Source: Lysobacterales bacterium
Lineage (GTDB): Bacteria; Pseudomonadota; Gammaproteobacteria; Xanthomonadales; Marinicellaceae
Assembly: GCA_026988115.1 (NCBI GenBank)
Contig: JALSLV010000076.1
Location: 1 to 51,012 of the forward strand
Reading direction: 5' to 3'
Length of the DNA: 51,012 nt
This document shows, piece after piece, positions 6,050-46,589 of this stretch (its first letter is position 1; each line of letters starts with the position of its first letter). The notes beneath the pieces were generated by a model, which searched no databases, was not told the DNA's origin, and saw only the letters and a program-made list of their open reading frames with translations. A program made the position numbers and the translations under genes.

Positions 6050-7372
6050 ATGAAAAAATTACTTATTTTATTAGTGGCATTGAGTTGTGCTGGCTTTGCA
6101 CAAACCGCAAAAAACCAACTCAAGCACCAAAACAACACGGCACCAATTGTCGTTGACAAAAAAGCACAATTACGCATTCAGGCAGGTAACAAATCAAATA
6201 GCAAATACCTAAACCGCTATAATTACCAAAATAACAACCAAACCATTGTTTGTGAATCCGTAAGAGGACGACGCAACCACTGTACTATTGATACGCGCTA
6301 TGGTGTAAATCTTGTACGCCAATTATCGGGCTCAACCTGCAATTACCATTGGGGTTATGACAACACAGGTATTTGGGTTGATGGCGGATGCCGAGCAGAA
6401 TTTAGTATAAACCTCGGTTGGGATCAACCCGGAGCAGAAGGCAATATAATGGTTTGCGAATCCCACAACTACCAACGCAATTATTGCCCTGCTTATTTAG
6501 GTGGACGTGATGTGTTTTTACTGCGCCAAGTCAGCAACTCCTCCTGTGTCAACAACTGGGGATACGATAGAAATGGTGTTTGGGTAACCAACGGATGCCG
6601 AGCAGAATTTGTAGTGGAAGACAGAAGTTATAATTTCGGCAACGATATTGTTGTTTGCAGTTCACGAAACAGGCGTTTTCAAGGCTGTCCTGCTGATACA
6701 CGAGGAGGTGTTGAGTTTCTTCGCCAATTATCACGTGCTAGCTGTAATGGCAACTGGGGATATGATCGCCAAGGCATTTGGGTTAATAACGGTTGTCGAG
6801 CAAAATTTAGGTTAATACCCTATCAAAACTATGGAAACAATGGCTATGGCAATAACAGCAACATTGTATCGTGCTCTTCACGCCACTTAAAAAGAAGGTT
6901 TTGTAATGCCGATACTTCTGGTGGCGTGCGCCTCAAACGTCAAAAATCACGCTCGCCTTGTCGAGGAAACTGGGGATTTGACCGCAATGGAATCTGGGTA
7001 ACCAATGGATGTCGCGCAACATTTGAGTTATACGTAGACGGCAGAGGTCGAGGGTATAACAACGGCGGATTCAACAATGGCAACAACGGTTACTCAAACA
7101 ATGGTCATCCGCACAATGGCAACAACGGTTATGGAACAACAGGACCCTACAACAATGGCAATAACGGTTATGGAAACAATGGCAATCTACAAAACAACAC
7201 CTTGATTTGTTCATCAAGAAACCTTAAAAGAAACGCCTGTGCCATTCCACAAGGAGCCAAAATAACCATGAAAAAACAACTCTCCAAAAGTTCCTGTGCA
7301 GGCAACTGGGGCTACAACCGCTATGAGGTTTGGGTCAACAACGGCTGCCGTGCTCAATTTAACATCTACTAA
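6050..7372 (+). CDS. Secreted protein with five DUF3011 repeats
   Basis: A signal peptide (MKKLLILLVALSCAGFAQ) is followed by five repeats of about 50-55 residues. Each carries a pair 'V/I-x-C-x-S' ... 'C', a 'R-Q-x-S-x-x-x-C' segment and the signature 'WGYDRxGIWVxxGCRAEF', so each repeat has four conserved Cys that could form disulfides in the periplasm. This matches DUF3011. A low-complexity Asn/Gly linker (about residues 340-385, NGNNGYGNNG units) separates repeats four and five. The RBS (AAGGGG) lies inside the end of the preceding gene, so the two are coupled. Function unknown; a secreted or cell-surface binding role is inference. A strong terminator follows immediately. Confidence 0.9.
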   Translation: MKKLLILLVALSCAGFAQTAKNQLKHQNNTAPIVVDKKAQLRIQAGNKSNSKYLNRYNYQNNNQTIVCESVRGRRNHCTIDTRYGVNLVRQLSGSTCNYHWGYDNTGIWVDGGCRAEFSINLGWDQPGAEGNIMVCESHNYQRNYCPAYLGGRDVFLLRQVSNSSCVNNWGYDRNGVWVTNGCRAEFVVEDRSYNFGNDIVVCSSRNRRFQGCPADTRGGVEFLRQLSRASCNGNWGYDRQGIWVNNGCRAKFRLIPYQNYGNNGYGNNSNIVSCSSRHLKRRFCNADTSGGVRLKRQKSRSPCRGNWGFDRNGIWVTNGCRATFELYVDGRGRGYNNGGFNNGNNGYSNNGHPHNGNNGYGTTGPYNNGNNGYGNNGNLQNNTLICSSRNLKRNACAIPQGAKITMKKQLSKSSCAGNWGYNRYEVWVNNGCRAQFNIY

Positions 7373-33223: not shown

Positions 33224-34894
33224 TTAACCAACTCCTGTAATTGTACCATCTGCTTGCACTTCAATTTTAGTTGCCACAGGGACTTTGGGCAAACCAGGCA
33301 TACGCATAATATTACCTGTAAGAACCACTAAAAATCCAGCACCAGCATTTATCTGTATACCACGAACTGTCACTTGAAAATCCTTGGGTATGCCGTGCAA
33401 TTTAGGGTCATCGGATAAAGAACTTGGCGCTTTAGCAATACAGACGGGTAGATGTTCTAGACCTAATTTTTTGATTTGCAGTAAATCTTTTTCGGCATCT
33501 TTAGTAAATGAAACATCATCAGCACCATACATTTTTTGGCTGACTTTGATGACTTTTTCGAAGACAGAATCACTGCTTTGATAAAGCGGTTGAAAAGCTT
33601 GATGATTGGTTGCGACATCAATTAAGGCTTGGGCTAATTCAACCGAGCCTTTTCCACCTTCGGTAAAATGACGTGACTCAGCAAATTTGATGCCCAGTTT
33701 CTCCACATGTGATTTAACAATGGCAATTTCGGCATCGGTATCAGCTGCAAAGCGGTTGAGTGCGACAACCATCGGTTTATTGAATTGTTGTACGCTATCA
33801 ATGTGCTTGTTTAAGTTATCCAAACCAAAGGCTACAGCGCTTAAATCTTCTGATTCTAAATCGTTTTCCTCTTTACCACCATGTAATTTCAAAGCACGAA
33901 TAGTCGTGACTAACACCACGGCAGCAGGATCTAAATCGGCCGATTGGCACTTAATATCAAAGAACTTTTCTGCACCCAAATCAAAACCAAACCCCGCTTC
34001 GGTAATAGCCCAATCCGAATAGTGCATCGCCATTTTGGTAGCCACCACAGAATTACAGCCATGAGCAATATTGGCAAATGGGCCGCCATGAATAAAAGCT
34101 GGGCAGCCTTCTAAAGATTGCACTAAATTTGGGTGAATGGCATCATTTAATAAAGCCATGAGTGCGCCAGTAAAATTTAACTGTTTTAAATAGACCGGTT
34201 CATTGTCATGTGTATACCCCAACAAAATTCGATTGAGCCTTTTGCGTAAATCTTCTTTATCATTGGCTAAACACAAAATCGCCATAATTTCAGAAGCCGC
34301 AGTGATATCAAAACCACCTTCACGAGGTACACCTTGAAACTTGCCACCCAAACCCAAAACAATTTGACGCAAGGAGCGGTCATTCATATCCATAACACGC
34401 CGCCAAACGATGCGTCTAGGGTCGATGTTGAGTTTATTGCGGTGATAGATGTGGTTATCTAACATGGAGGAAATCAAGTTGTTTGCAGAGGTTATTGCAT
34501 GAAAGTCTCCAGTAAAATGTAAATTTATTCGACTTGCAGGAACAACTTGGGCATAACCACCACCTGTTGCCCCACCTTTGATACCCATACAAGGACCAAG
34601 GGAAGGTTCTCGTAATGCCAAACAAACAGACTCACCTAATTGTTTTAAACCTTGAGCTAAACCAATGGAAGTTGTGGTTTTTCCCTCACCTGCTTTGGTT
34701 GGTGTTGTGGCTGAAACCAATATCAATTTATTGGGTTTCTTACCAGGTCTTTTGCCTTTGAGTGCATCCAAATGCACCTTGGTTATCTCTTTGCCATAAG
34801 GCATCAAATGTGTTTCATCAATGTGCATTTTTTCTGCAACCGATAAAATGGGTTTAACTTTGGTTTTTTTTGCAATTTCACTATTTGACAACAT
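33224..34894 (-). CDS. fhs: Formate-tetrahydrofolate ligase
   Basis: This 556-residue enzyme makes 10-formyl-tetrahydrofolate from formate, ATP and THF. Motifs seen are 'LILVSATTPTKAGEGKTTTSIGLAQGL' (P-loop), 'LREPSLGPCMGIKGGATGGGYAQVVP', 'NLHFTGDFHAITSANNL', and 'VRGIQINAGAGFLVVLTGNIMRMPGLP' at the C-terminus. The presence of this ligase gives a route for formate into one-carbon metabolism. The ferritin-like gene ends 3 nt upstream, so it belongs to the same transcript, and the 13-gene oxidoreductase operon lies before that. Confidence 0.97.
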   Translation of the reverse strand: MLSNSEIAKKTKVKPILSVAEKMHIDETHLMPYGKEITKVHLDALKGKRPGKKPNKLILVSATTPTKAGEGKTTTSIGLAQGLKQLGESVCLALREPSLGPCMGIKGGATGGGYAQVVPASRINLHFTGDFHAITSANNLISSMLDNHIYHRNKLNIDPRRIVWRRVMDMNDRSLRQIVLGLGGKFQGVPREGGFDITAASEIMAILCLANDKEDLRKRLNRILLGYTHDNEPVYLKQLNFTGALMALLNDAIHPNLVQSLEGCPAFIHGGPFANIAHGCNSVVATKMAMHYSDWAITEAGFGFDLGAEKFFDIKCQSADLDPAAVVLVTTIRALKLHGGKEENDLESEDLSAVAFGLDNLNKHIDSVQQFNKPMVVALNRFAADTDAEIAIVKSHVEKLGIKFAESRHFTEGGKGSVELAQALIDVATNHQAFQPLYQSSDSVFEKVIKVSQKMYGADDVSFTKDAEKDLLQIKKLGLEHLPVCIAKAPSSLSDDPKLHGIPKDFQVTVRGIQINAGAGFLVVLTGNIMRMPGLPKVPVATKIEVQADGTITGVG

Positions 34895-34897
34895 TAT

Positions 34898-35416
34898 TTA
34901 GTTTCCTGGTCCGCCACTGTGGATAATTTCGTAGTACTTCTTTTCCAATTCTAACTTATGTTCCGCTTCTTCGATAGCCAAGAAACGAAAAGTGTCTTGT
35001 AATTCACCTTCAGGCGCATTATCTGCCAAATCTTGGTATTGCTTCATTGCCGCATCTTCGCGTGCCAGCGCATATTGCAAAATCGTTTGGTCATCGGGAT
35101 TGTCACCCAAGTCCAACAACTGCACATAATCAGAAAACTTGTGGTTTTCAGTTGGCGTTTTGATGCGTTCATCCAATTGAGTCTGTACATAAGGGTCATT
35201 TTTTAAGGATAAAAACAAATCGTAATGCTGCTGCTCTTCTTCGGCCAATTCTTCCACAATATAACGTATGTTTTTACTTACTTTAGGAATCATCGCTGTG
35301 TAGAAATCCCGTGCCGTTTTTTCAAAAGAAACCGCCACATCTAAGATTTCTTTAAGTGTCGTTTTCGACTTCAATTTTTCATAGGACTTTGAATGTCCTT
35401 CTTTGTGTTTACTCAT
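34898..35416 (-). CDS. Ferritin-like diiron protein (rubrerythrin-type domain)
   Basis: The 172-residue, four-helix protein shows paired metal motifs: Glu in 'AVSFEKTARDFY', ExxH in 'EELAEEEQQHYDLF', Glu in 'ALAREDAAMKQYQDLA', and a last ExxH in 'LAIEEAEHKLELEKKYYE'. This is the rubrerythrin/ferritin-like diiron pattern without a rubredoxin domain, for iron oxidation or peroxide removal in the cytoplasm. An AGGAGA sits 9 nt before the ATG. It lies between the NuoI-GltD gene (separated by a REP element) and fhs, suggesting protection or iron handling for the large Fe-S complex; that is inference. Confidence 0.85.
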   Translation of the reverse strand: MSKHKEGHSKSYEKLKSKTTLKEILDVAVSFEKTARDFYTAMIPKVSKNIRYIVEELAEEEQQHYDLFLSLKNDPYVQTQLDERIKTPTENHKFSDYVQLLDLGDNPDDQTILQYALAREDAAMKQYQDLADNAPEGELQDTFRFLAIEEAEHKLELEKKYYEIIHSGGPGN

Positions 35417-35485: not shown

Positions 35486-37312
35486 TTATTTATTCAAAAA
35501 TCTATCAATATCCTTTGCCACACGATGCCCATCGGCTACTGCATTGATCACATCTGGGCCTTTGACCATATCACCAGCAGACCACAGCCATTCAACAGAT
35601 GTGTGGCCATTTTCATCAATCTGTATTCTGCCACGATTCCATTCTAATTCTTCGGTAAGTTCTTCACCCAAGATGGAAACATCACTCATCTGACCAATGG
35701 CCTCAATCACCATGTCCGCTTGGTGAAACTGCAAGTCTTCTTCATCGTATTTTGGTGCAAAGCGACCTTGAGCATCAAAAATTGAGATGACTTTAACCGT
35801 TTCAAGCCCCACTAGTTTGTTATTTTTTATCACACATTGCTTTGGTCCTCTTGCATCCAAAATACTTATGCCTTCTTCCAAAGATTCTTTAACTTCCTCA
35901 TCATCGGCTAAAAAGGTTTTACCTAATTGCTCTAGTGCAGTTAGAGTGATATTAACTTCACCGTATTTTTGTTGTTGCAACCGAGCCATGGAGCGGGCAA
36001 TATCCATCGCCACGTTACCACCGCCGATTACTACGGCAGATTTCGGCACATTAACTTTATCGCCTTTGGGTATCATGCGTAATAAATCAACCGCCTTGAC
36101 CACCATTTTGTGGTCGCTACCTTTTATTCTGGTAGAACGCCCCATTTGTAAGCCGATTGCCATCACCACGGCATGGTTGTCTTTGTACAATTGCGCCATA
36201 GAAATATCGGTGCCAACTTTGACATTGTATTTAATGTCAACACCAACGGATTGTATGACTTCAATGTCTTGATCTAATCTGTCTTCTGGCAAGCGGTAAT
36301 TGGGGATGCCATAGCGAGTCATGCCACCGGCTTTTGGTAAAGATTCATAAACTGTTACTTTGTGGCCTTTTTTAACTAAATCAAAAGCAGCTGTCAAACC
36401 AGCAGGTCCGGCTCCTACCACAGCAATGCTTTTACCTGATTTTTTGCGGGCTTTGCCTTTGCGGGCAATTTGCTTAATCTTGGTTTTGGAAACATTATCC
36501 ATGGCAAAGCGTTTGAGCCAACGAATCGCAATCGGGTCAGACTCGCCTTCGCCATGCCCAAGTGAGCAAGCTGTTTCACAAATATGCGTACAAACACGCC
36601 CACAGACATGTGAAAACGGATTGGTTTCATACATCCATTCAACTGCTTGTTCCAAATTGCCTTCGTAAATCGAACGGATATAATTGGGGGCGTGCATGTG
36701 TGCTGGGCAAGCATCTTCGCACAAGCCACAATCGACACATCGCGAGGCTTCTTGCACCGCCATTTCTAGGGTGAAACCATCCACAATTTCATCGAAATTA
36801 TCTATGCGCGCCTCAGATAACATTTCACCCATTGGGCGACGAATTCTATCCAGTAAGTCGCTGTCTTCGGTTTTGGTCCAGCCTTTTTCAAAGCTATCAC
36901 CATGAATTCCCGTTTCTTTAGGAAAGATAAAATAACTATCGGTTTCATCACCATCACAGGTGTGTACATATTCACGAGTCATTTCTATGGCACTGGTTGG
37001 GCAAATATCCACACACAACGCACACCAACAGCAACGACCGTAGTCAATGGCTGGACGTAAATTGCGTAAACCTTTGGCAGCATCTTCTTTAATGGAGGGC
37101 ACTTCAACCATGGTAATAGCAGCGTTGTCACAAATCTTTTGGCACGAACTGCAACCAATACACTTATTTAAGTCGTTAATATGGAAACCACGGTAACTGG
37201 CACTGGCATCTCGTGGGCCAAGCGGTTCCGTGACGGGTTTTCTGGCATAAAACTGTAGATTCTTTAACGGATTTAAAATGCTGCCTTTGTCATTGTAATT
37301 AATTTTTTTCAT
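35486..37312 (-). CDS. NuoI-type ferredoxin fused to GltD/NfnB-like NAD(P)H flavoprotein
   Basis: This 608-residue fusion has two parts. Residues about 40-110 form a NuoI/MbxN-type ferredoxin with two CxxCxxCxxxC motifs (C51-C61 and C94-C104). Residues about 185-260 carry another motif (C192, C195, C198, C202 with C237-C249), typical of the GltD/Nfn N-terminal Fe-S domain. FAD binding follows ('VVGAGPAGLTAAF', about 298-310; 'AGGMTRYGIPNYRLPE') and a NAD(P)H site ('VVIGGGNVAMDIARSMARL', about 427-445). 'SAGDMVKGPDVINAVADG' ends the flavin fold. It would pass electrons between NAD(P)H and the complex through its Fe-S chain. It is the last subunit gene of the operon, overlapping nuoD by 1 nt. 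I know the two parts as separate genes in MBX-like loci. Confidence 0.9.
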   Translation of the reverse strand: MKKINYNDKGSILNPLKNLQFYARKPVTEPLGPRDASASYRGFHINDLNKCIGCSSCQKICDNAAITMVEVPSIKEDAAKGLRNLRPAIDYGRCCWCALCVDICPTSAIEMTREYVHTCDGDETDSYFIFPKETGIHGDSFEKGWTKTEDSDLLDRIRRPMGEMLSEARIDNFDEIVDGFTLEMAVQEASRCVDCGLCEDACPAHMHAPNYIRSIYEGNLEQAVEWMYETNPFSHVCGRVCTHICETACSLGHGEGESDPIAIRWLKRFAMDNVSKTKIKQIARKGKARKKSGKSIAVVGAGPAGLTAAFDLVKKGHKVTVYESLPKAGGMTRYGIPNYRLPEDRLDQDIEVIQSVGVDIKYNVKVGTDISMAQLYKDNHAVVMAIGLQMGRSTRIKGSDHKMVVKAVDLLRMIPKGDKVNVPKSAVVIGGGNVAMDIARSMARLQQQKYGEVNITLTALEQLGKTFLADDEEVKESLEEGISILDARGPKQCVIKNNKLVGLETVKVISIFDAQGRFAPKYDEEDLQFHQADMVIEAIGQMSDVSILGEELTEELEWNRGRIQIDENGHTSVEWLWSAGDMVKGPDVINAVADGHRVAKDIDRFLNK

Positions 37313-38463
37313 TATCTATCAACCTCTGGTGGACAGGCATCGAGCGAGAACATAATCTGTGCAACATCTTCTAAACGAGCACCTTTAGCTAAAAACTCCA
37401 GCGTTTGTACTGCATGCATGGAAGAGGGCCCTCGAACATGAACCCGATAAGGTTTGTCACCGCCATCTGAAACTACGTAATAAGCCAATTCACCTTTTGA
37501 AGATTCTACCCGTGCATAGGCTTCGCCTTTACGAACATTCCACGATAAAGGATTAGGAATTGGCGTGCGAATTTTGCCCTTAATTGATGGCAAGCGTTCG
37601 ATGATTTGACGTAAAATTCGTATGCTTTGGAACAGCTCATCACGCCTGACTAAAATACGCGAATAAGCATCACCATGTTTCTGTCTCGGAATATCAAACT
37701 CTAATTCATCATAAACCAAATACGGATCATCACGACGCACATCATAAGCCAGACCACAAGCCCGTAAATTAGGGCCTGTGACACTCAATTCTAAGGCTTG
37801 GGATTGTGTTAATGCACCACAACCTTTGGCACGCTCGACAAACACTTGGTTGGTGAACAATAAATTATCGTAATCGTTTTGACGTGATTCGAGATAATCC
37901 AATAAGTTGCTGAGTTTTTGTAAAAACTCTGGAGGCAATTCGCGGCGAACACCGCCTGGGATATTGTAAATACTGTAAACCCGACCACCTGTAAAGTCTT
38001 CGAACAAATCCAACACCAAATCACGGTCGGCAACACCCCAAAACATCGGTGTGTACATGCCTGTTGTGGCAGCATGTCCACCAAAGGTGAATAAATGTGC
38101 GGCAACACGGGATAGTTCCAATTGCATGGTACGAATCCATTGTGCTCGAATCGGTGCTTCGATACCCATGATTTCTTCAACCGCCATGGAATAAGCCACT
38201 TCCATTGGTGCTGGATCGGGCACACAAATCCGCGGAACAATGGCTAAGTTTTGTATCCACAAACGGCCTTCCATCAGTTTTTCAAAGCCACGGTGCAAAT
38301 AACCTGCATCAGCCTTGCCGCTGACGACGATATCGCCATCGAGCATTAATCTAAAGGCATAGTTGCCTTCGATTCCTGGATGATTTGGGCCAATGAAAAT
38401 TTCGTATTCATTGCTATCGCCGAGTTTTACGGCTTGGTAATTTTCTGGTCTCATTGTTTCCAC
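37312..38463 (-). CDS. NuoD / MbxL-like catalytic subunit, [NiFe] ligands incomplete
   Basis: This 383-residue protein is homologous to the 49-kDa complex I subunit and to group-4 hydrogenase large subunits. 'IGPNHPGIEGNYAFRLMLDGD', 'GYLHRGFEKLMEGRLWIQN', 'RTMQLELSRVAAHLFTFG' and 'NIPGGVRRELPP' are clear. The hydrogenase CxxC pairs are broken: the N-terminal site reads RIC(80)VPD and the C-terminal site DAC(377)PPEVDR, so the second Cys of each is Asp or Glu. Nickel-iron catalysis is therefore unlikely. This may fit MBX/MBS enzymes, whose active site is also not a normal [NiFe] site, or a quinone-type site. It overlaps nuoC by 13 nt. Confidence 0.9.
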   Translation of the reverse strand: METMRPENYQAVKLGDSNEYEIFIGPNHPGIEGNYAFRLMLDGDIVVSGKADAGYLHRGFEKLMEGRLWIQNLAIVPRICVPDPAPMEVAYSMAVEEIMGIEAPIRAQWIRTMQLELSRVAAHLFTFGGHAATTGMYTPMFWGVADRDLVLDLFEDFTGGRVYSIYNIPGGVRRELPPEFLQKLSNLLDYLESRQNDYDNLLFTNQVFVERAKGCGALTQSQALELSVTGPNLRACGLAYDVRRDDPYLVYDELEFDIPRQKHGDAYSRILVRRDELFQSIRILRQIIERLPSIKGKIRTPIPNPLSWNVRKGEAYARVESSKGELAYYVVSDGGDKPYRVHVRGPSSMHAVQTLEFLAKGARLEDVAQIMFSLDACPPEVDR

Positions 38464-39104
38464 CCCTGCATTTTGTCATTGGCCTTAACTGCGGCAGCCT
38501 TGGCTTTATCACGCTCTCGGTGTGTTGACATATTATGCGTGTTTCCAGCCGTGCGAATGTCTTCAGGTTTAACCGCAATACCGCCACCTTGGTCGGTTAA
38601 TTCTTGTAACCAATCTGGGTTGTAATCAGTCCATTTAAAAGTTTCTTGTACGTAAGCTTCGGCATCAAAATCTTTGAGCATTGGTGGTACGCCATTCCAT
38701 TCGGTGAGGATGAATTTTTCCATACGTGGTGAACCAATAAAGGTCACACCGTACATTTCAAAAATATCACGTTCAAAGAAATCAGCGGGTTTAAATAAAT
38801 CATAAACCGAAATGTATTTTGCTGGATTTTTTTCACTACCGCGGTCAATGCGCGTGTGTGCCGAAATTAAACATTTCTCTTCATACGACCACACGTGGTA
38901 AACCAGTTCAAACTGGTTATCTGCAATCCAATCCACACACGTTATGGCGGATAAGTGAATGTATGATGCACGCCCCTTTATCAATTCTAAAAGTGTTGGT
39001 AAGGAGTCAGCATCGACATCAACCCGAATGCGTGTTTTACGTTTGTGCGTTATCTTGATGCCATTAACCTTATTTAAGATTTCATCTATTTGTACTTTGT
39101 TCAT
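38451..39104 (-). CDS. NuoC / MbxK-like subunit
   Basis: This 217-residue protein matches the 30-kDa subunit: 'LPTLLELIKGRASYIHLSAITCVDW', 'FELVYHVWSYEEKCLISAHTRIDR', and the signature 'RDIFEMYGVTFIGSPRMEKFIL' (about residues 113-134), followed by a basic and acidic tail of about 60 residues. It forms part of the peripheral arm near the NuoB/NuoD interface. Its ATG overlaps the NuoB stop by one base, so the arm genes are translated together. Confidence 0.92.
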   Translation of the reverse strand: MNKVQIDEILNKVNGIKITHKRKTRIRVDVDADSLPTLLELIKGRASYIHLSAITCVDWIADNQFELVYHVWSYEEKCLISAHTRIDRGSEKNPAKYISVYDLFKPADFFERDIFEMYGVTFIGSPRMEKFILTEWNGVPPMLKDFDAEAYVQETFKWTDYNPDWLQELTDQGGGIAVKPEDIRTAGNTHNMSTHRERDKAKAAAVKANDKMQGWKQ

Positions 39105-39799
39105 TATTTAATCCTCATTTCTTGAGGTAATAAAGGTGTTTGGTGTTTCTCTAACAACTTAGTGTGTTTGCCGTAAGTTTCTTCGGTTTCTAAGCCATAG
39201 AGTTTTGCCTCAGCAATAATGTCCGTTGGCGTTTGCCAATCCTCACCAAACAAAGCTTGTTGGTTGCCCAAATAATAATCATAACGCTTAAAATAATCTT
39301 TCCAAGCACTGCCTTTGTGCTCTTTTTTATCGTTACGAATATTGTCTTTTAACCGTTGTAAACCTGCCATCACCGCTTCAGGTCGTGGCATACATCCAGC
39401 GATATAAACATCAACGGGCATATACTCATTGAGTTTTTTGGCTGTGGCATAACTTTGCCAATACATACCGCCATTGACGGTACATGAACAAATACCAATA
39501 ACGTATTTGGGTGACTGCATTTGTTCGTAAGTCAGAATCACACGTTTAAGTGTTTTGATGGAAACATAACCGGTAATCAATAAAATATCGGCTTGTCTGG
39601 GTGTCACCATCGGTTGAATACCCAAGCGCTCCATATCAAAACGCGAAGTCATGGCAGGTGGTAACTCTATCGCTCCGCAACCCGTGCAATAATGCAGCAT
39701 AAAAAGGGACTTGGATTGGCAGAAGCGGATAAAATCATCGAACACATGAGCCAATGGATTGGTCCGTTCTTTTTGTTTAATTTTTAATTCTTTTTTCAT
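39104..39799 (-). CDS. NuoB / MbxJ-like Fe-S subunit
   Basis: This 231-residue protein carries the last Fe-S cluster (N2-like) before the catalytic subunit. Ligand candidates are C38 and C41 in 'HYCTGCGAIELPPAM', C104 or C106 in 'GICSCTVNGGMYW', and C136 in 'AGCMPRPEAVMAGL', which fits the group-4 hydrogenase/complex I small subunit. The C-terminus is about 60 residues longer than the core family, with an acidic/basic helical part. It lies 14 nt from the NuoH gene. Confidence 0.92.
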   Translation of the reverse strand: MKKELKIKQKERTNPLAHVFDDFIRFCQSKSLFMLHYCTGCGAIELPPAMTSRFDMERLGIQPMVTPRQADILLITGYVSIKTLKRVILTYEQMQSPKYVIGICSCTVNGGMYWQSYATAKKLNEYMPVDVYIAGCMPRPEAVMAGLQRLKDNIRNDKKEHKGSAWKDYFKRYDYYLGNQQALFGEDWQTPTDIIAEAKLYGLETEETYGKHTKLLEKHQTPLLPQEMRIK

Positions 39800-39813
39800 A
39801 ATTATTTACTTCC

Positions 39814-40701
39814 TTAAAGGATAAACGCCAAACTAATCAAACCAAGCATAACTGGCCATTTCCATAAAATGCGTATCACATCTTCGGTCTTATAACGCGG
39901 GAACATAAAGGCAATACTCATGGGTAATGCCACCACTAAAAAGGCTTTGGGTAATAAGGTCAAGAAGCTTGTACCACCACCAAGGAATAAAGAGGCATAC
40001 AAAACACCTGCGGTGTAAAGTTGAAAAGTCTGCATCACAAACAAGCCACCCATGTATTTACCACTCATTTCTACCATTGGACCGGTGGCAATTTCAGCTG
40101 GGGCAATATAAATTTCAAACGGTTGTTTACCCAACATGCCTTGCAAAGCAAAGAGTCCTGCAATGGCTAATAGTGGCATTTCAACAATACCCCATTGGTG
40201 CACTTGCTGATACTCGATCATGCCAATTAAGGATGTACTTTGGTAATGCCAAGCAGCACCAAACACCACCAAGATGAAAGGAATATCATAAGCCAACATC
40301 GCGGTTAGTGCGCGGGAAATACCGATTGAACCATTTGGATTAGCACATTGACCAACGCCAAGAGCCATACCCAATGAAGGAATCATCAAAAAGTAAGACA
40401 AGGTAATTACGCCACCTTTCGCCGCAATGCCTTCCATACCTGGCACAGGCAATAAAATCTCTGCACCGATATAACCACCCACAGCCATAATAATGCCAAT
40501 ATCGTGAATTAATCCGTGTGAAATTTGCGTGTCTTTGCCATAAAGTTTTACAATATCATACAAAGGTTGAAAAAATGGAGGACCAATTCGGCGTTGCAAG
40601 CGTGCCGAAATTTTACGCATCATCAATACCATCATCATGCCGACGATAAAAGCAATCAAAGGCATAAAGATGAGTTCGGCCATTAAGTGTAAAGCATTCA
40701 T
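39814..40701 (-). CDS. NuoH / MbxM-like membrane subunit
   Basis: This 295-residue protein has about eight transmembrane segments and links the Fe-S arm to the antiporter-like subunits. 'MMRKISARLQRRIGPPFFQPLYDIVKLYGKD' is the typical first cytoplasmic loop. The acidic stretch 'GLFALQGMLGKQPFEIYIAPAEIATGPMVEMSGKYMG' corresponds to the conserved charged loop of NuoH and MbhM. The start overlaps the antiporter-like gene by 4 nt. In complex I this subunit contributes to the quinone site; here the site seems to serve a non-quinone or unusual acceptor. Confidence 0.93.
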   Translation of the reverse strand: MNALHLMAELIFMPLIAFIVGMMMVLMMRKISARLQRRIGPPFFQPLYDIVKLYGKDTQISHGLIHDIGIIMAVGGYIGAEILLPVPGMEGIAAKGGVITLSYFLMIPSLGMALGVGQCANPNGSIGISRALTAMLAYDIPFILVVFGAAWHYQSTSLIGMIEYQQVHQWGIVEMPLLAIAGLFALQGMLGKQPFEIYIAPAEIATGPMVEMSGKYMGGLFVMQTFQLYTAGVLYASLFLGGGTSFLTLLPKAFLVVALPMSIAFMFPRYKTEDVIRILWKWPVMLGLISLAFIL

Positions 40702-42587
40702 GCGCCTACTCCTAAGTTTCTATACAGTGCCAACAGGGCTAATACCACGCCAATCAGTAATAACATGACGGGTTGTTTGGCACGGTAAATATTTTCAAAG
40801 AAAACCGAGAAAAAGCTCATCACCGAAACGATGGAGTTTTCCAGCCATTGAAAACTACCACGGTACCAAGTGCCAATAAGATGCATCAGTCCAGGGTAGA
40901 AATTATTAGAATAATGGTAACGCACATCAGAGGTAAGAAAGTGACCACCCGCATAGTTATCGTATTGATGAACACGTTTGGATTTGCCACCAAGGAAATA
41001 AAAGATCAGAGCACCGACACCAAAACCGTAAAACAGTATACCGCTGACCCAAATCATATCCAATCCACCTTTGGCGTATTCGATACCACCAAGGTGATGC
41101 GCAATAACGGGTAAGCCAACACTTTCTTGCACCGATGCAATCCACGGTAAAATCAAGCCAGGCATAAATCCTGTGATAAAGACAATGACCGACAAACCCA
41201 GCATAGGTACTAACATACTCCAAGGCACTTCACGAACGTTTTGGTGCTCGAGACGTAATTGACCCAGAAAAGTATTGTGAATTAATTTATAAACCGAAAG
41301 AATAGTACCCAAAGTACCAAGTACCGCCGCAACAAATAACAAGGGTTGCCCATTAACCAACAACGAACGATAAACCAACCATTTAGACACAAAGCCATTC
41401 ATCGGTGGTAATCCTGCCAAGCCGATGATGCCAATTAACATCACTAAAAAGGTCAATGGCATTTGCGTGACCAAGCCACCGAGTTTATTCAAGTCTGATG
41501 TGCCTGTGCGGTACATCACTGCCACAACAGTCATAAATAACGCTGCTTGATAGGATGCGTGATTAAGCACATGCATCAAACCACCCGCACTACCAATGCT
41601 ATCAAACATGATAATCCCCAACAACATATAACCACCTTGTCCAACACCGTGCCACGCCAATAAGCGTTTAGCATCGTGTTGTTGTAAAGCAATATAAGTA
41701 GGTATAATGGTAGTCAATGCCGCCACCCAAGCCAACAAGGTTTGCATATTGGCAAATGAAGTGCCTACACTTTTTAATCCTCCTAAGCCGATAAACTGCA
41801 CAATCACCAAGACAATGGTAAACATGCCCATACGGGAGGAAATAGCACCCAAAAAGGCAGCACCAGGCCCTGGAGTTTCGGCATAGGCAACCGCTTGCCA
41901 TAAGTGAAAGGGCAACAAGCCCATCTTGATGGCAAAGGCAACAAATAACAGTAACACCAAAGCGACTTGCGAGGAGCCACTCATTTGGGCAAAGACGATA
42001 CTAATTTGTTCAAACTCAAGAGAATCATTAACCGCATAAATCATCACAATTGCCACCATCAGTGCCATTGCACCAGTCATAGCATAAACGATGTATTTAA
42101 CCGCAGATTTCTTGGCTAATTTACTGGGTGACAAAACCATCATCAAGAAACTCGCCCAAGAGACAAACTCCCAACCAATAAATAAGGACAACAAATCACC
42201 ACTGCCAAGTAATAAAATCATACTGAATACATTGACGATTAGTGCTAATTGCAACATACCATAATTACCACCACCCTCGCGGTATTGCCTACCCCAATCA
42301 CCCGACATAAACACCGCTGATGCCAAGGCAGCAACAAGGGTAATAATAGCAAAATACCACGACAAAGCAGTAAATTGCCAATGCATTTTAAAACCAAGCA
42401 AATCAAGAGAGAAGGATGATAGGTATGCATCTCCACCATAAGCCACTGATGCCATACGTACCAACATGATAAGGATGAGCCCATATAAGACAGGGGCTAA
42501 TTTATCAACGATGGGTAAATTTCTCACAACTGAAATAGCAATCAAACAGGAAAAGACAACGATAAACAAATGGTCTAATAAAGTCAT
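40698..42587 (-). CDS. NuoL/MrpA-like antiporter-type subunit (MbxH'-like)
   Basis: This 629-residue membrane protein has about 15-16 transmembrane helices and the Proton_antipo_M core: 'IGWEFVSWASFLMMVLSPSKLAKKSAVKYIVYAMTGAMAL' (key Glu and Lys), 'LPFHLWQAVAYAETPGPGAAFLGAISSRMGMFT', 'AWHGVGQGGYMLLGIIMFDSIGSAGGLMHVLNHASYQAALFM', and 'AGLPPMNGFVSKWLVYRSLL'. It is the second antiporter-like subunit of the operon and should carry out Na+ or H+ translocation. It overlaps its neighbours by 4 nt on both sides. Confidence 0.93.
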   Translation of the reverse strand: MTLLDHLFIVVFSCLIAISVVRNLPIVDKLAPVLYGLILIMLVRMASVAYGGDAYLSSFSLDLLGFKMHWQFTALSWYFAIITLVAALASAVFMSGDWGRQYREGGGNYGMLQLALIVNVFSMILLLGSGDLLSLFIGWEFVSWASFLMMVLSPSKLAKKSAVKYIVYAMTGAMALMVAIVMIYAVNDSLEFEQISIVFAQMSGSSQVALVLLLFVAFAIKMGLLPFHLWQAVAYAETPGPGAAFLGAISSRMGMFTIVLVIVQFIGLGGLKSVGTSFANMQTLLAWVAALTTIIPTYIALQQHDAKRLLAWHGVGQGGYMLLGIIMFDSIGSAGGLMHVLNHASYQAALFMTVVAVMYRTGTSDLNKLGGLVTQMPLTFLVMLIGIIGLAGLPPMNGFVSKWLVYRSLLVNGQPLLFVAAVLGTLGTILSVYKLIHNTFLGQLRLEHQNVREVPWSMLVPMLGLSVIVFITGFMPGLILPWIASVQESVGLPVIAHHLGGIEYAKGGLDMIWVSGILFYGFGVGALIFYFLGGKSKRVHQYDNYAGGHFLTSDVRYHYSNNFYPGLMHLIGTWYRGSFQWLENSIVSVMSFFSVFFENIYRAKQPVMLLLIGVVLALLALYRNLGVGA

Positions 42588-44044
42588 GATTTCTCTCCCA
42601 AGTAACGTGCTGGCAACACCGTGTGGATATAAATTTGTGGGTTTGCTGAGTGATTTGCTATGTCTTTTAAGCGTTTGGAAATTGGTGAAACAAACACCAT
42701 AGAGACCAACAACAACAAAGCAAATAATTTAGCAAAGGTATAAGAAGCACTGTATCTCTTGTTTAGTGGTGTTGAGTCAGCATCAGCTTTTAGGTACATT
42801 GTTTGTACAAGATTAAACATATAAGCTGTTTCTATTATTGTCGCTAACAAAATAACACCAATTGCTAAATAATATAAACCTCCACCAAGTTCTGCTAAAT
42901 TCATTACTAGTGCCATTTTAATCCAAAACCCAGGCAATGGCGGAACACCAAGCAATGATAATATAAACACTAGGAAAACCGCAGCAGACATAGGAGAATG
43001 ATGCGCCAAGCCTTTGAGTTTATCGAAGTGACCACTGAACCTATCCGCCATTAAAAATAATCCGCCTTTAACTAGTAAATGGTGCAACATAATGGCAATA
43101 GCTAGCCATAAACCTTTAGAGCCACCGATGGATAAAGCAATAAATAAAACACCCAAATGAGCAATAGAAGAAAACGACAACATACGAATCATGTCTTTTG
43201 CTCGCCATGCCACCATTTCGCCACTAATCACACCCAACATACCAACCACCAAGAGCAAATCAAATGCCGCTTGTACTTGAAACACCATCAGTAACATTTT
43301 TATAATTAAAACAACCGCTAGTTTTGAAATCAAACCAGCAAGCAAAGCCGATAACTGTCTTGGTATCGTACCGTAAACTTCTGCCACCCATGAATTAACG
43401 GGGAACATTTCCGCTTTCACGCCAGCACCTATAGCAATCAAAGCAAAAGCTGAAAGCCCTGCAAAACCATGAAGGTTTTCTGTCATCGTTGCTAAGTGAG
43501 CAATATTTAAGGTGCCGGTTAAGGTATAAATGATGGCAATACCCAATAACAACATCACAGAGCCAGCACTGCTGATAAACAAATAACGCAAAGAGGCTGC
43601 AGTCGCTGAAGAATTTTTTTGCTTCGCTATAATTCCGTAAGTTGCCACAGCTAATAATTCATAAAATACATACAAGTTAAATAAATCCGCACTCAAGGCC
43701 AAACCAAATGATGCGGCTGACAACAACATATATAAAGAGTAAAGTCGAGATTCTTTTGCATCCCAAGGCCACACTATAAGCACCATACTGGCAATTAATC
43801 CAGAAAACAGTAAACTAAAATGATCAATATAAAAGACAATGCCAACAGGTGGTAAAAAGCCTCCTAAGAAAATCGCATGTGCACCACTACCAACCTTTAC
43901 CCAAGCCGACATTATCAATAACAAATTAATACACAACACCACAGGCCCTGTGAACAAGGCTAATTTAGAGGAAAATTTAGCCACCACAGGAATAATAAAT
44001 GCTGCAAAAAGAGGTAAAACCATCAATAAGACTAAACTGTTCAT
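42584..44044 (-). CDS. MrpD/MnhD-like antiporter subunit (MbxH-like)
   Basis: This 486-residue membrane protein has about 14 transmembrane helices and is homologous to MrpD and NuoN. 'DLFNLYVFYELLAVATYGIIAKQ' (key Glu), 'GAGVKAEMFPVNSWVAEVYGTIPRQLSALLAGLISKLAVVLIIK' (Lys-rich channel), 'SFSSIAHLGVLFIALSIGGSKGLWLAIAIMLHHLLVKGGLFLMADR' and 'GVPPLPGFWIKMALVMNLAE' are recognisable. The order MrpC, MrpD, second antiporter-like gene is that of MBX-type operons. Translation is coupled to the MrpC gene by a 4-nt overlap. Confidence 0.93.
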   Translation of the reverse strand: MNSLVLLMVLPLFAAFIIPVVAKFSSKLALFTGPVVLCINLLLIMSAWVKVGSGAHAIFLGGFLPPVGIVFYIDHFSLLFSGLIASMVLIVWPWDAKESRLYSLYMLLSAASFGLALSADLFNLYVFYELLAVATYGIIAKQKNSSATAASLRYLFISSAGSVMLLLGIAIIYTLTGTLNIAHLATMTENLHGFAGLSAFALIAIGAGVKAEMFPVNSWVAEVYGTIPRQLSALLAGLISKLAVVLIIKMLLMVFQVQAAFDLLLVVGMLGVISGEMVAWRAKDMIRMLSFSSIAHLGVLFIALSIGGSKGLWLAIAIMLHHLLVKGGLFLMADRFSGHFDKLKGLAHHSPMSAAVFLVFILSLLGVPPLPGFWIKMALVMNLAELGGGLYYLAIGVILLATIIETAYMFNLVQTMYLKADADSTPLNKRYSASYTFAKLFALLLLVSMVFVSPISKRLKDIANHSANPQIYIHTVLPARYLGEKS

Positions 44045-44490
44045 GAGTTTTCTCCTTCAATGAGTTTTACTGGTGCTGGCGCTTCGTTACTGCCAGGTGG
44101 TGTTACACCTGCATTCTCTGCTATTTCACGTTCCAGTTTTGAGCGGATAGTACGCATATCCATACTGCCGTAATGCTTTTTTACTCGAAAAATTAACGAT
44201 AATGCCAGTGCCTGTACACCAACACCAATGACTATCGCTGTGAGTACTAAAGCTTGTGGCACAGGGTCATTCATCACTGCACCACTATTGCCATCTAAAA
44301 AGATAGGTGCGATACCATTGCGGATAAAACCTGATAAAACCAACACTAAGTTTGCACCCGCTTCGAACAAGACTAATGAAAGTAACAGACGAAATAGGTT
44401 TTTAGAAACCAACAAGCCAAACAAGCCTATAATGGATAAGGATATGGCGCCAAAATAAAGAATACCTTCTACGGTAAAAAAATGATTCAT
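44041..44490 (-). CDS. MrpC/MnhC subunit (NuoK-like)
   Basis: This 149-residue protein has three transmembrane helices in the first 105 residues: 'YFGAISLSIIGLFGLLVSKNLFRLLLSLVLFEAGANLVLVLSG' and 'DPVPQALVLTAIVIGVGVQALALSLIFRVKKHYG'. This is typical of MrpC and NuoK, including the Glu in the second helix. A hydrophilic C-terminal tail of about 40 residues (Arg/Glu/Pro-rich) is longer than usual. It overlaps both neighbours by 1-4 nt. Confidence 0.93.
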   Translation of the reverse strand: MNHFFTVEGILYFGAISLSIIGLFGLLVSKNLFRLLLSLVLFEAGANLVLVLSGFIRNGIAPIFLDGNSGAVMNDPVPQALVLTAIVIGVGVQALALSLIFRVKKHYGSMDMRTIRSKLEREIAENAGVTPPGSNEAPAPVKLIEGENS

Positions 44491-45212
44491 CAGTCTACCA
44501 CCTCATCTGAGTTTAATGCCAACAACAAACCAGCCAATTCTGCCCCAACTTTTAAACCAACAGCCAAATACAACAAAGGCAAAGTACCTGCCGACCAAAG
44601 ACTACCGAATTCGCCATGACTTAACAAAGGCTGTAAAAAACTTTGACCTTTAAATAAGGCAATGACACCAATCAAAATAAAACTAACGCCAGCAAAACTT
44701 TCGATAATCGAAACCATGCCGTGATTAATGGATGCTCTTCGTGGTCGAACGATAACCAACATGGAAAAAGCCACGGCTAAAACCACACCACCTTGAAAAC
44801 CACCACCAGGGGTTAAATGACCGTGAGTAATAATGTACATGCCCACAACCAACAACAAAGGGAAGATTAAATCAATGGCATTGACAGCGACAAAGCCACT
44901 GTCATGGTGATCGTGTTTATCATTATTGGCACTTGCTGCCTTATTGAAACTGGATTTAGTTAAAACCAAACCAACAACCGAAGCGGCTGCAAATAAAATG
45001 GATAGTTCGCCAAGCGTATCCAAACCTCGATAACCCAATACCACCGAAGTCACCACATTAGCCGCTCCTACTTGGTCTTTAGCGCCTTCCAAAATAGCCT
45101 TTCCTACTAGCATTGGTGTGTGACTGTCTGAAAAGATGGGCAACAACCCTGTTATTACCATGAGTAAAAACACTAAACCAGAAATAAATAAAAGAGCAGA
45201 ATATTTAGTCAT
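44490..45212 (-). CDS. MbhE-like domain fused to MrpB/MnhB
   Basis: This 240-residue protein joins two subunits that are often separate. Residues 1 to about 90 (LLPIFSDSHTPMLVGKAILEGAKD, then 'NVVTSVVLGYRGLDTLGELSILFAAASVVGLVL') match the MbhE/MrpA C-terminal segment. Residues about 105-240 ('NAIDLIFPLLLVVGMYIITHGHLTPGGGFQGGVVLAVAF', 'AELAGLLLALN') match MrpB. 'HGHLTPGGGFQGG' is the MnhB signature. In P. furiosus MBH these are separate genes, as I recall, while in many bacteria the first part sits in MrpA. Its start overlaps the DUF4040 gene by 8 nt. Confidence 0.9.
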   Translation of the reverse strand: MTKYSALLFISGLVFLLMVITGLLPIFSDSHTPMLVGKAILEGAKDQVGAANVVTSVVLGYRGLDTLGELSILFAAASVVGLVLTKSSFNKAASANNDKHDHHDSGFVAVNAIDLIFPLLLVVGMYIITHGHLTPGGGFQGGVVLAVAFSMLVIVRPRRASINHGMVSIIESFAGVSFILIGVIALFKGQSFLQPLLSHGEFGSLWSAGTLPLLYLAVGLKVGAELAGLLLALNSDEVVD

Positions 45213-45483
45213 GACGTTCTCCTGCTTTGACTTTGTCTATTGAATCGGTTTTCCAATAACCCAAGCGTTTTAAACCAATGGCTAAAATTAACGAGCTTAA
45301 ACCAGCACCAATCGCCGCCTCGGTCATGGCAACATCGGGAGCTTTTAATACGGCAAAAATAACCGTCAAGCATAAAGAAACCACTGCCGATGCGACCACT
45401 GCCGCAATCATATTGGGCAAAAACAACACCGCAAGTGCCGCTGCTAACATAATAAACACCACTACCGTAACTACCCAAATCAT
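45205..45483 (-). CDS. DUF4040 / MbhD-like subunit (MrpA C-terminal-type)
   Basis: This 92-residue protein has three transmembrane segments: 'VVTVVVFIMLAAALAVLFLPNMIAAVVASAVVSLCLTVIFAVLKAPDVAMTEAAIGAGLSSLILAIGL'. The 'LKAPDVAMTEAAIGAG' stretch is the DUF4040 signature, homologous to NuoJ-like regions of MrpA. The protein should lie in the antiporter core beside MrpC. The soluble end (KTDSIDKVKAGERHD) is short. It is encoded between MrpG and the MbhE/MrpB fusion, the position it has in MBH-like operons. Confidence 0.92.
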   Translation of the reverse strand: MIWVVTVVVFIMLAAALAVLFLPNMIAAVVASAVVSLCLTVIFAVLKAPDVAMTEAAIGAGLSSLILAIGLKRLGYWKTDSIDKVKAGERHD

Positions 45484-45800
45484 GCGTCTTTCTCCTCTTT
45501 ATCAGATGCTCTGTCATCCTTATGCCAGACTTTAATGCCACTGCGGTAAAACGCACGGGAAATGGCAGAAGAACTCACCGGAGAAGTCAAAAGAGTGAAA
45601 CCTAAAATCACCAACAATTTGCTCCACCATAATGGATGAATCAAAAACAAACCAAATAAAACACCAATCGCACCCAAGGTCACACCTTTTGTGCCAACCT
45701 GAATTCGGTTGTAAACATCAGGCATACGGATTAAACCCACCGCGCCTAAAAAAATAAATACAGCACCGAACAAGATAAATAGGTCACCAATAAAATGCAT
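45480..45800 (-). CDS. MrpG/MnhG subunit
   Basis: This 106-residue protein has three transmembrane segments and the MnhG signature 'GAVGLIRMPDVYNRIQVGTKGVTLGAIGVLFGLFL' (about residues 19-53), followed by 'LLTSPVSSSAISRAFYRSG'. MrpG is an accessory membrane subunit of the Na+/H+ antiporter part. It overlaps DUF4040 by 4 nt and shares one base with MrpF. Confidence 0.93.
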   Translation of the reverse strand: MHFIGDLFILFGAVFIFLGAVGLIRMPDVYNRIQVGTKGVTLGAIGVLFGLFLIHPLWWSKLLVILGFTLLTSPVSSSAISRAFYRSGIKVWHKDDRASDKEEKDA

Positions 45801-46075
45801 CAGCCTTGCTCCTTTTCATCTGCTTTGGACTCAATCACACGCGCTAGAGCAATCATGCCAACAAAGGACAAAACTGCATAAATCAAAGCCACATCTAAAT
45901 ACAAAACGCTGTCAAAAAATAAAGCCAGCAAAACCAAAACAACAGAGGCAATCAAATTTAACGCATCGGTTGCCACAATTCTATCGGGATTTGTTGGGCC
46001 AAAAATCAATCGATACAGCCCAATTAATGCCGCCAACCCAATAAGTAGCATGGCAATAATTTCAATAATAGTCAT
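45800..46075 (-). CDS. MrpF/MnhF subunit
   Basis: This 91-residue protein has three transmembrane segments and typical MnhF text: 'YRLIFGPTNPDRIVATDALNLIASVVLVLLALFF', then 'YLDVALIYAVLSFVGMIALARVIE'. The 'GPTNPDRIVATDAL' part is the family signature. It is the second gene of the operon, 10 nt after MrpE. Confidence 0.93.
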   Translation of the reverse strand: MTIIEIIAMLLIGLAALIGLYRLIFGPTNPDRIVATDALNLIASVVLVLLALFFDSVLYLDVALIYAVLSFVGMIALARVIESKADEKEQG

Positions 46076-46085
46076 ATCATTATCC

Positions 46086-46589
46086 TCATTTTAAAAACCC
46101 CTTAAGATACTTCTCAAACTTAGCCACCACCAATTTAGTGTTTGTCTTTATATCTGTATTTTTTGGTACATCAATCCAATGCACCAATAGGCTGTCACCA
46201 ATAACATCCACAGTTAATGTACCTGGTGTTAAAGTAATACTATTAGCTAAAAACAATTTGCCCAAGTCCGAACGCATAGTGGTTTTGATTTCAACCACAT
46301 CGGGATGTAACTTCATGTCTTTAGAAACTACTCTTTTAGCTAAATCAAAATTGGCTTTAATTAACGCCATAAAGAAATACCAAAGGTAACTAATCAAACC
46401 CAAGAAAAACCCAAGATGCAATCGCAAACCATTGAGAATCTTCATTTTAGGTGCAGATATTATACTGACCACCAATGAAATAATGACACCACTGATGAGC
46501 TCATCAGCAGCAAAAGATGCTGTTAACAATAGCCAAAGCAATAAGCAAATGACGAAAGTAACAACATACGGAGAAGACGAATTTTTCAT
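46086..46589 (-). CDS. MrpE/MnhE subunit, first gene of the 13-gene operon
   Basis: This 167-residue protein has two N-terminal transmembrane segments ('VTFVICLLLWLLLTASFAADELISGVIISLVVSII') and a third at about 60-80, then a soluble MnhE domain ('NFDLAKRVVSKDMKLHPDVVEIKTTMRSDLGKLFLANSITLTPGTLTVDVIGDSLLVHWIDVP'). This is the MnhE pattern with 'LTPGTLTVDV' conserved. AAGGA 8-9 nt before the ATG gives it its own RBS. No MrpA large subunit is present. The operon promoter should lie in the 197 nt up to the divergent aspartoacylase-like gene, but I could not identify it with confidence. Confidence 0.92.
   Translation of the reverse strand: MKNSSSPYVVTFVICLLLWLLLTASFAADELISGVIISLVVSIISAPKMKILNGLRLHLGFFLGLISYLWYFFMALIKANFDLAKRVVSKDMKLHPDVVEIKTTMRSDLGKLFLANSITLTPGTLTVDVIGDSLLVHWIDVPKNTDIKTNTKLVVAKFEKYLKGFLK

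Follow-up and report, generated by a model that had tools for sequence, protein, structure and literature searches.

The locus described here raises the question of which reaction a complex of the archaeal MBX/MBS type would catalyze in a gammaproteobacterium. It is located on contig JALSLV010000076.1 of a Lysobacterales bacterium (GenBank assembly GCA_026988115.1), of which we analyzed positions 1 to 51,012 (referred to as the window here). An initial annotation of the DNA had described 13 genes in the order of the archaeal MBX operon, without NuoEFG and without hydrogenase maturation genes. These genes (positions 35486 to 46589) lie on the minus strand and are transcribed from 46589 toward 35486, with neighbors that overlap or are at most 15 bases apart. 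Pfam assigned all 13 of them, and they follow one another in the same order as the MBS subunits A, B, C, D, E, G, H, H', M, J, K, L, and N, with names and set taken from PMC7684303 (statements on papers cited by PMC number refer to the available part of each text). Likewise, Pfam assignment found neither nuoE, nuoF, or nuoG nor hydrogenase maturation genes among the operon genes, in agreement with the initial annotation. From the sequence, it is strongly supported that the operon encodes a genuine MBX-family complex. On balance, we consider it probable that this bacterial MBX complex acts as a reversible, ion-translocating NADH:polysulfide oxidoreductase with a linear flavin relay. The subunit set, the active-site residues, a fusion protein, the loss of an NADP motif, a conserved neighborhood, and an association with sulfur genes can be read from the sequences, and from these we infer substrate, cofactor, ion, and direction.

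For the six subunits that were compared with solved structures (the L, J, M, H, and H' types and the NuoI-like part of the last gene product), the closest solved relative was in every case the MBS of Pyrococcus furiosus (6u8y; scores in Table 1). In MBS, three cysteines (MbsJ C28, C93, and C123) ligate the proximal cluster, C25 being too distant to bind, and the quinone residues H38/Y87 are absent (PMC7684303). Residues C38, C41, C106, and C136 of the NuoB-like subunit align with MbsJ C25, C28, C93, and C123, with an ungapped CTGC motif, and the CTGC, SC, and GC motifs are kept in 33 of 33 aligned NuoB rows of subtype A, the form with two separate antiporter-like subunits. In the NuoD-like subunit, the counterparts of MbsL C85 and C385 are C80 and C377, and three MbsL-type motifs are identical in all 34 subtype-A rows. 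The aligned NuoD rows lack H38/Y87, the quinone residues of complex I, and the NuoB-like subunit lacks the tandem-cysteine (CC) motif of complex I. A length filter removed short-match rows from these alignments and from that of the pump residues, and the subtype-B NuoB rows lie outside the motif alignment. The initial annotation had named a grouping of NuoD with true complex I as a result that would speak against it. In a tree with one archaeal and three complex I sequences as references and no MBH row, NuoD groups with P. furiosus MbsL, apart from the complex I sequences, with a support of 100/100 and on long branches. The NuoB-, NuoD-, and NuoH-like proteins also show the highest identities among the subunits in most loci. 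Two other assignments were rejected, namely, a group 4 [NiFe] hydrogenase (MBH), since the PRICVPDP and LDACPPEVD motifs hold one Cys each and thus retain only two of the four NiFe-binding cysteines, and a complex I lacking an NADH module, given the residues, the structure-match scores, and the NuoD tree.

The initial annotation had left NAD(P)H, ferredoxin, or a sulfur compound open as electron partner and had called the last gene NuoI. This name fits residues ~8 to 125 of the 608-amino-acid product, which are NuoI/MbsN-like, but the remainder consists of a Fer4_20 domain (residues 169 to 277) and an FAD/NAD(P)H oxidoreductase (residues ~295 to 608), that is, a fused nicotinamide module. The best NCBIfam model of this fusion was PRK13984, with a score of 817 bits, which is below the equivalog cutoff of 946, a cutoff passed only by Thermotoga maritima among 14 control genomes. 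The flavin module is GltD-like, and its solved relatives are NfnL, NfnABC, and StnC. Residue K267 of the fusion aligns with StnC K170, and all 45 Mbx fusion rows have a Lys at this position (one contig being included twice), compared to a Glu in two NfnL rows. The FAD of StnC has been described as nonbifurcating and K170 as a likely cluster ligand (PMC10482914). Additionally, the YRR motif, through which NfnL binds the NADP phosphate, has given way to A-L/I/M-E/D in 43 of the 45 rows and is kept in loci L072 and L074 only. In DsrL proteins, YRR marks the NADP(H)-using DsrL-2, while DsrL-1 without YRR uses NAD(H) (PMC7596348). Given the StnC-type Lys and the loss of YRR, the flavin module is predicted to be linear and NADH-linked.

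For MBS, five charged residues have been named in each of the two pump subunits (PMC7684303). Seven of these ten are identical in the operon: MbsH E138, K250, and K393 are kept in 28/28 rows and MbsH' E128, K217, H336, and K399 in 30/30 rows. Judging from these sequences, the complex likely pumps ions, in a way that would differ in detail from MBS.

In the mechanism that we propose, electrons would move in either direction between NADH, FAD, two [4Fe-4S] clusters, two NuoI-type [4Fe-4S] clusters, the NuoB cluster, and polysulfide. The NuoB-, NuoD-, and NuoH-like subunits would form a hydrophobic chamber, and the active site at its end would probably be a [4Fe-4S] cluster bound by three cysteines, where polysulfide or other sulfane sulfur would react. 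This redox path would be coupled to the two antiporter-like pump subunits and the Mrp-type cation/proton module. The potentials are about -320 mV for NADH and about -260 mV for polysulfide, and because this span is small the complex would be reversible. In the forward direction, it would use NADH to reduce zero-valent sulfur, either stored or from the environment, and build an ion gradient; backward, it would spend the gradient to obtain NADH from reduced sulfur. The source of NADH and the handling of zero-valent sulfur are a recurrent question in sulfur-oxidizing autotrophs. That the complex runs in reverse in these organisms, with the ion gradient driving electrons from sulfide or sulfane sulfur straight to NAD+, is a tentative proposal that we regard as rather unlikely. 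If true, it would provide a bypass of quinone-based reverse electron transport via complex I, and the loss of YRR, as in the oxidative DsrL-1, would be an adaptation to NAD+.

To the initial annotation, such a complex was unexpected in this type of organism, a view that does not agree with its distribution. The PRK13984-type fusion, full or partial, is present in 18 of the 369 sampled genomes of the class (Gammaproteobacteria), from 16 families; in two of these (G290 and G208) it matches in part, at contig ends, and in a third (G319) the match was split in two, although the frame is open. A “putative Mrp-Mbx complex” has also been named in the tubeworm symbiont Endoriftia (PMC11636981). None of the other sampled members of the host's order carries the fusion (0/4 in the class sample and 0/5 in the phylum-wide sample). 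Of the 219 genomes in the phylum-wide sample, 5 match at 1e-150, and the 4 of these outside the class have subtype-B operons, all with the rubrerythrin-like gene described below. Relatives with an Mbx operon include metagenome-assembled genomes labeled Lysobacterales, and subtype-A operons are found in the symbionts of Escarpia and Lamellibrachia. In a scaffold of the latter (L014), the operon contains extra NuoB/NuoC-like pieces, either a duplication or an assembly fault. No plasmid-borne relatives were found at an E value of 1e-60. In subtype B (L060, L072, L074, and L089 to L092), one antiporter of ~1045 to 1150 amino acids replaces the two, with two Proton_antipo_M stretches in one protein in the case of L089. 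Its NuoB has an FGTGC motif with the C25 equivalent missing, which is consistent with three-cysteine ligation.

We then compared the 18 genomes with the fusion (Mbx+), which are all that were found, irrespective of size and completeness, with 41 genomes that lack it (Mbx-), chosen before the gene searches as every fifth of the class sample that reached a size of 2.3 Mb and a completeness of 85%. A dsrA gene, counted at an E value of ≤1e-90 (G264 and G208 carry partial dsrA below the model cutoff), is present in 17/18 Mbx+ versus 14/41 Mbx- genomes (Fisher p 1.3e-5), soxB, counted over its cutoff, in 16/18 versus 16/41 (p 5e-4), and one or the other in 18/18 versus 18/41. For RuBisCO, where the weak matches in G150 and G260 are omitted, the counts are 15/18 versus 18/41 (p 0.009). 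Since the sampled genomes are related to one another, these and the following p values are indicative only.

Several observations weigh against an NADH:polysulfide oxidoreductase. First, genes of the POR family are found in 18/18 Mbx+ versus 20/41 Mbx- genomes (p 6.6e-5) and, within dsrA-positive genomes, in 17/17 versus 9/14 (p 0.012), an association that argues for the involvement of ferredoxin no less than for that of sulfur. Second, the host has soxB, a RuBisCO-type gene, and a POR gene, but it is the sole dsrA-negative genome among the Mbx+ ones; genome searches gave no dsrA and no aprA match, and its link to sulfur is one apparently lone soxB-like gene (L084, 9311-11275, contig C8). In Endoriftia, moreover, the Mbx genes have network neighbors in common with reductive tricarboxylic acid cycle and hydrogenase genes and not with the Calvin-Benson-Bassham cycle, with which most of the sulfur-oxidation genes share theirs (PMC11636981). 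Third, the NuoB-like subunit has an extra cysteine, C104, two residues ahead of a cluster ligand, in 31/33 subtype-A rows (it is missing in L023, L068, and P. furiosus), which could serve as a fourth ligand and restore full ligation, and the subtype-B NuoD (three rows) is devoid of the C385 equivalent, with some rows also devoid of the C85 equivalent. Fourth, MbsH E219 is changed to K and H330 to a hydrophobic residue in 28/28 rows, and MbsH' K248 is changed to R in 30/30 rows. The changes at E219 and H330 make the pump chemistry less certain. However, the K at the E219 position resembles MbsH' K217, and because MbsH' itself has a K at this place, we left our estimate for the NADH:polysulfide reaction as it was. 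Fifth, folding of the fusion yielded a model of mediocre quality (mean predicted local distance difference test score, 65.6) that shows an NfnL/Stn-type fold, nothing further. Finally, a lone NuoE-NuoF fusion of 535 amino acids (L079, 8892-10499, contig C53), which seems to adjoin 2-oxoglutarate dehydrogenase genes, as suggested by gene sizes and starts, could be another NADH partner.

The alternative that survives best is an energy-converting ferredoxin:NAD+ oxidoreductase, in which reduced ferredoxin would bind at the NuoI part and NAD+ at the flavin module, without sulfur chemistry, and the chamber would serve only to couple redox to pumping. This agrees with the POR counts and with the ferredoxin:NADP+ role stated for Pyrococcus Mbx (PMC6349859). 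Yet the route between ferredoxin and NAD+ would not have to include the NuoB/NuoD chamber, even though its cysteines are invariant in subtype A and the NuoB, NuoD, and NuoH identities are the highest in most loci, and the host already carries an Rnf cluster (contig C37), so that we consider this alternative unlikely. A three-way bifurcating or confurcating complex that uses NADH, ferredoxin, and polysulfide is more doubtful still: the NfnL-like fold of the flavin module and the POR-family genes would fit it, but an NfnS-like gene is absent among the operon genes, and the Glu ligand of the bifurcating NfnL is a Lys in all 45 fusion rows, as in the nonbifurcating StnC. A quinone-reducing complex I variant, with an NADH module of its own or a borrowed one, is very improbable, since the homology of NuoB/C/D/H/I, the matches of the NuoD- and NuoB-like proteins to the NCBIfam NuoD and NuoB models over cutoff, and the spare NuoE-NuoF fusion are outweighed by the absence of H38/Y87 and of the tandem-cysteine motif, by MBS scores above those of complex I for L, J, and M, by the NuoD tree, and by the separate complex I operon of the host. 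This operon (contig C43, L077) also qualifies the initial annotation, whose statement that a full complex I set is lacking is true of the Mbx operon but not of the genome. Equally, nuoE/F/G, which according to the initial annotation would speak against it if present elsewhere and acting with the Mbx subunits, do exist in the genome, but NuoF and the NuoE- and NuoG-sized genes accompany the host's other nuoD, and nothing ties them to Mbx.

Although the 13 genes are all present, they are not the full operon, as a 14th, rubrerythrin-like gene had been missed. The fusion gene was found in 40 loci, 38 of which extend far enough downstream to accommodate a further gene. In 37 of these, a rubrerythrin-like gene is located 3' of the fusion in the same orientation, no more than 704 bases away (36 of 37 distinct loci, since L024 and L073 are one contig). 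The two genes overlap by 4 bases in 9 loci, while the gap exceeds 200 bases in 3 of the 37 (L005, L022, and L067), according to mechanically computed starts. No rubrerythrin-like gene lies within 1370 bases in L072, and the gene in L074 is divergent (34% identity). Residues E32, E60/E61, H64, E120, E149/E150, and H153 are invariant in 20/20 aligned rows and, by analogy to the family, may be di-iron ligands. The protein was modeled as four long helices, and this model matched ferritin-like folds at E values of 0.039 or worse only. It would probably protect or maintain the oxygen-labile cluster, or else be an alternative acceptor, which is the weakest step of the proposed mechanism.

A formate-tetrahydrofolate ligase gene follows 3 bases past the rubrerythrin-like gene but is probably not part of the operon; among the flanks, it stands directly after the operon only in L003 and L004 and apart from it in L015. 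No further conserved neighbor was found in the locus flanks, where the widest families reach 4 loci. Scans of the window with Rfam (gathering threshold) and for tRNAs were empty. Elsewhere in the window, a gene encodes a protein in which a cysteine-containing motif of the NNGCRAxF type is repeated several times.

TABLE 1 Features of the window, with the operon genes in order of transcription
Feature	MBS position	Size (amino acids)	Positions	Strand	Evidence (next-best score in parentheses)
MrpE-like	MbsA	167	46086..46589	-	PF01899, 124 bits
MrpF-like	MbsB	91	45800..46075	-	PF04066
MrpG-like	MbsC	106	45480..45800	-	PF03334
MbhD/DUF4040-like	MbsD	92	45205..45483	-	PF13244
MbhE-MrpB (MbhE/MnhB) fusion	MbsE	240	44490..45212	-	PF04039 over cutoff; PF20501 MbhE, 26.8 bits vs 27-bit cutoff
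MrpC-like	MbsG	149	44041..44490	-	PF00420
Antiporter-like subunit (Proton_antipo_M)	MbsH type	486	42584..44044	-	Best PDB match 6u8y_H, 193 bits (136)
Second antiporter-like subunit (Proton_antipo_M)	MbsH' type	629	40698..42587	-	Best PDB match 6u8y_X, 190 bits (132)
NuoH-like membrane anchor	MbsM	295	39814..40701	-	Best PDB match 6u8y_M, 180 bits (61)
NuoB-like subunit	MbsJ		39104..39799	-	Best PDB match 6u8y_J, 207 bits (119); motifs
NuoC-like subunit	MbsK	217	38451..39104	-	PF00329, 88 bits
NuoD-like subunit	MbsL		37312..38463	-	Best PDB match 6u8y_L, 393 bits (269); motifs; tree
Fusion: NuoI-like + Fer4_20 + FAD/NAD(P)H module, PRK13984-like	MbsN	608	35486..37312	-	NuoI-like part: MbsN best NuoI-type chain, 70.8 bits (44.4)
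Rubrerythrin-like protein, 14th gene		172	34898..35416	-	PF02915; di-iron type ligand residues
Formate-tetrahydrofolate ligase			33224..34894
Protein with cysteine-containing repeats		440	6050..7372

The complex is not entirely new, since a relative occurs in T. maritima and the “putative Mrp-Mbx complex” of Endoriftia has been published. The latter, for which the function or direction of MBX is listed as unknown (PMC11636981), is probably the same complex, judging from the subtype-A operons in the Escarpia and Lamellibrachia symbionts; the module architecture given here is lacking in the available part of that account. In open-licence full texts (supplements being outside the scope), we found no text on an NADH module, a rubrerythrin partner, or a cofactor prediction for proteobacterial Mbx. 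What the present analysis newly contributes is the module architecture, the cofactor prediction, the rubrerythrin partner, the distinction of two subtypes, and the association of the operon with genes for sulfur oxidation. The architecture yields testable predictions, i.e., NADH over NADPH, polysulfide as the partner, a flavin relay that is linear, and a rubrerythrin-like protein as a further partner. The MBX of T. maritima has 13 subunits homologous to MBS, and transcription of its mbxA goes up with sulfur (PMC9431562); we liken it to the host operon from this published description and from its PRK13984 match over cutoff, in contrast to the host fusion. StnC and NfnL share with the fusion the FAD/NAD(P)H and two-cluster fold, with the Lys being of the StnC type, and DsrL-1 shares the absence of YRR, a likeness taken from its published description, with DsrL outside our alignment. 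What sets the host protein apart from StnC, NfnL, and DsrL is that its flavin module is joined to a NuoI-like domain within an ion-pump operon. With the MBS of P. furiosus (6u8y), the host complex has in common the 13-subunit plan, the two antiporter-like subunits, the MbsJ/MbsL residues, and the absence of the quinone residues. It differs in the NuoI subunit fused to a flavin-nicotinamide module (608 amino acids versus 208 in 6u8y_N), the added rubrerythrin-like gene, the extra NuoB cysteine, and the change of 3/10 named pump residues, and while archaeal MBS takes electrons from ferredoxin, the host complex has a fused GltD/StnC-like FAD module. If our interpretation is true, an archaeal-type sulfur pump operates in bacteria that also have complex I.

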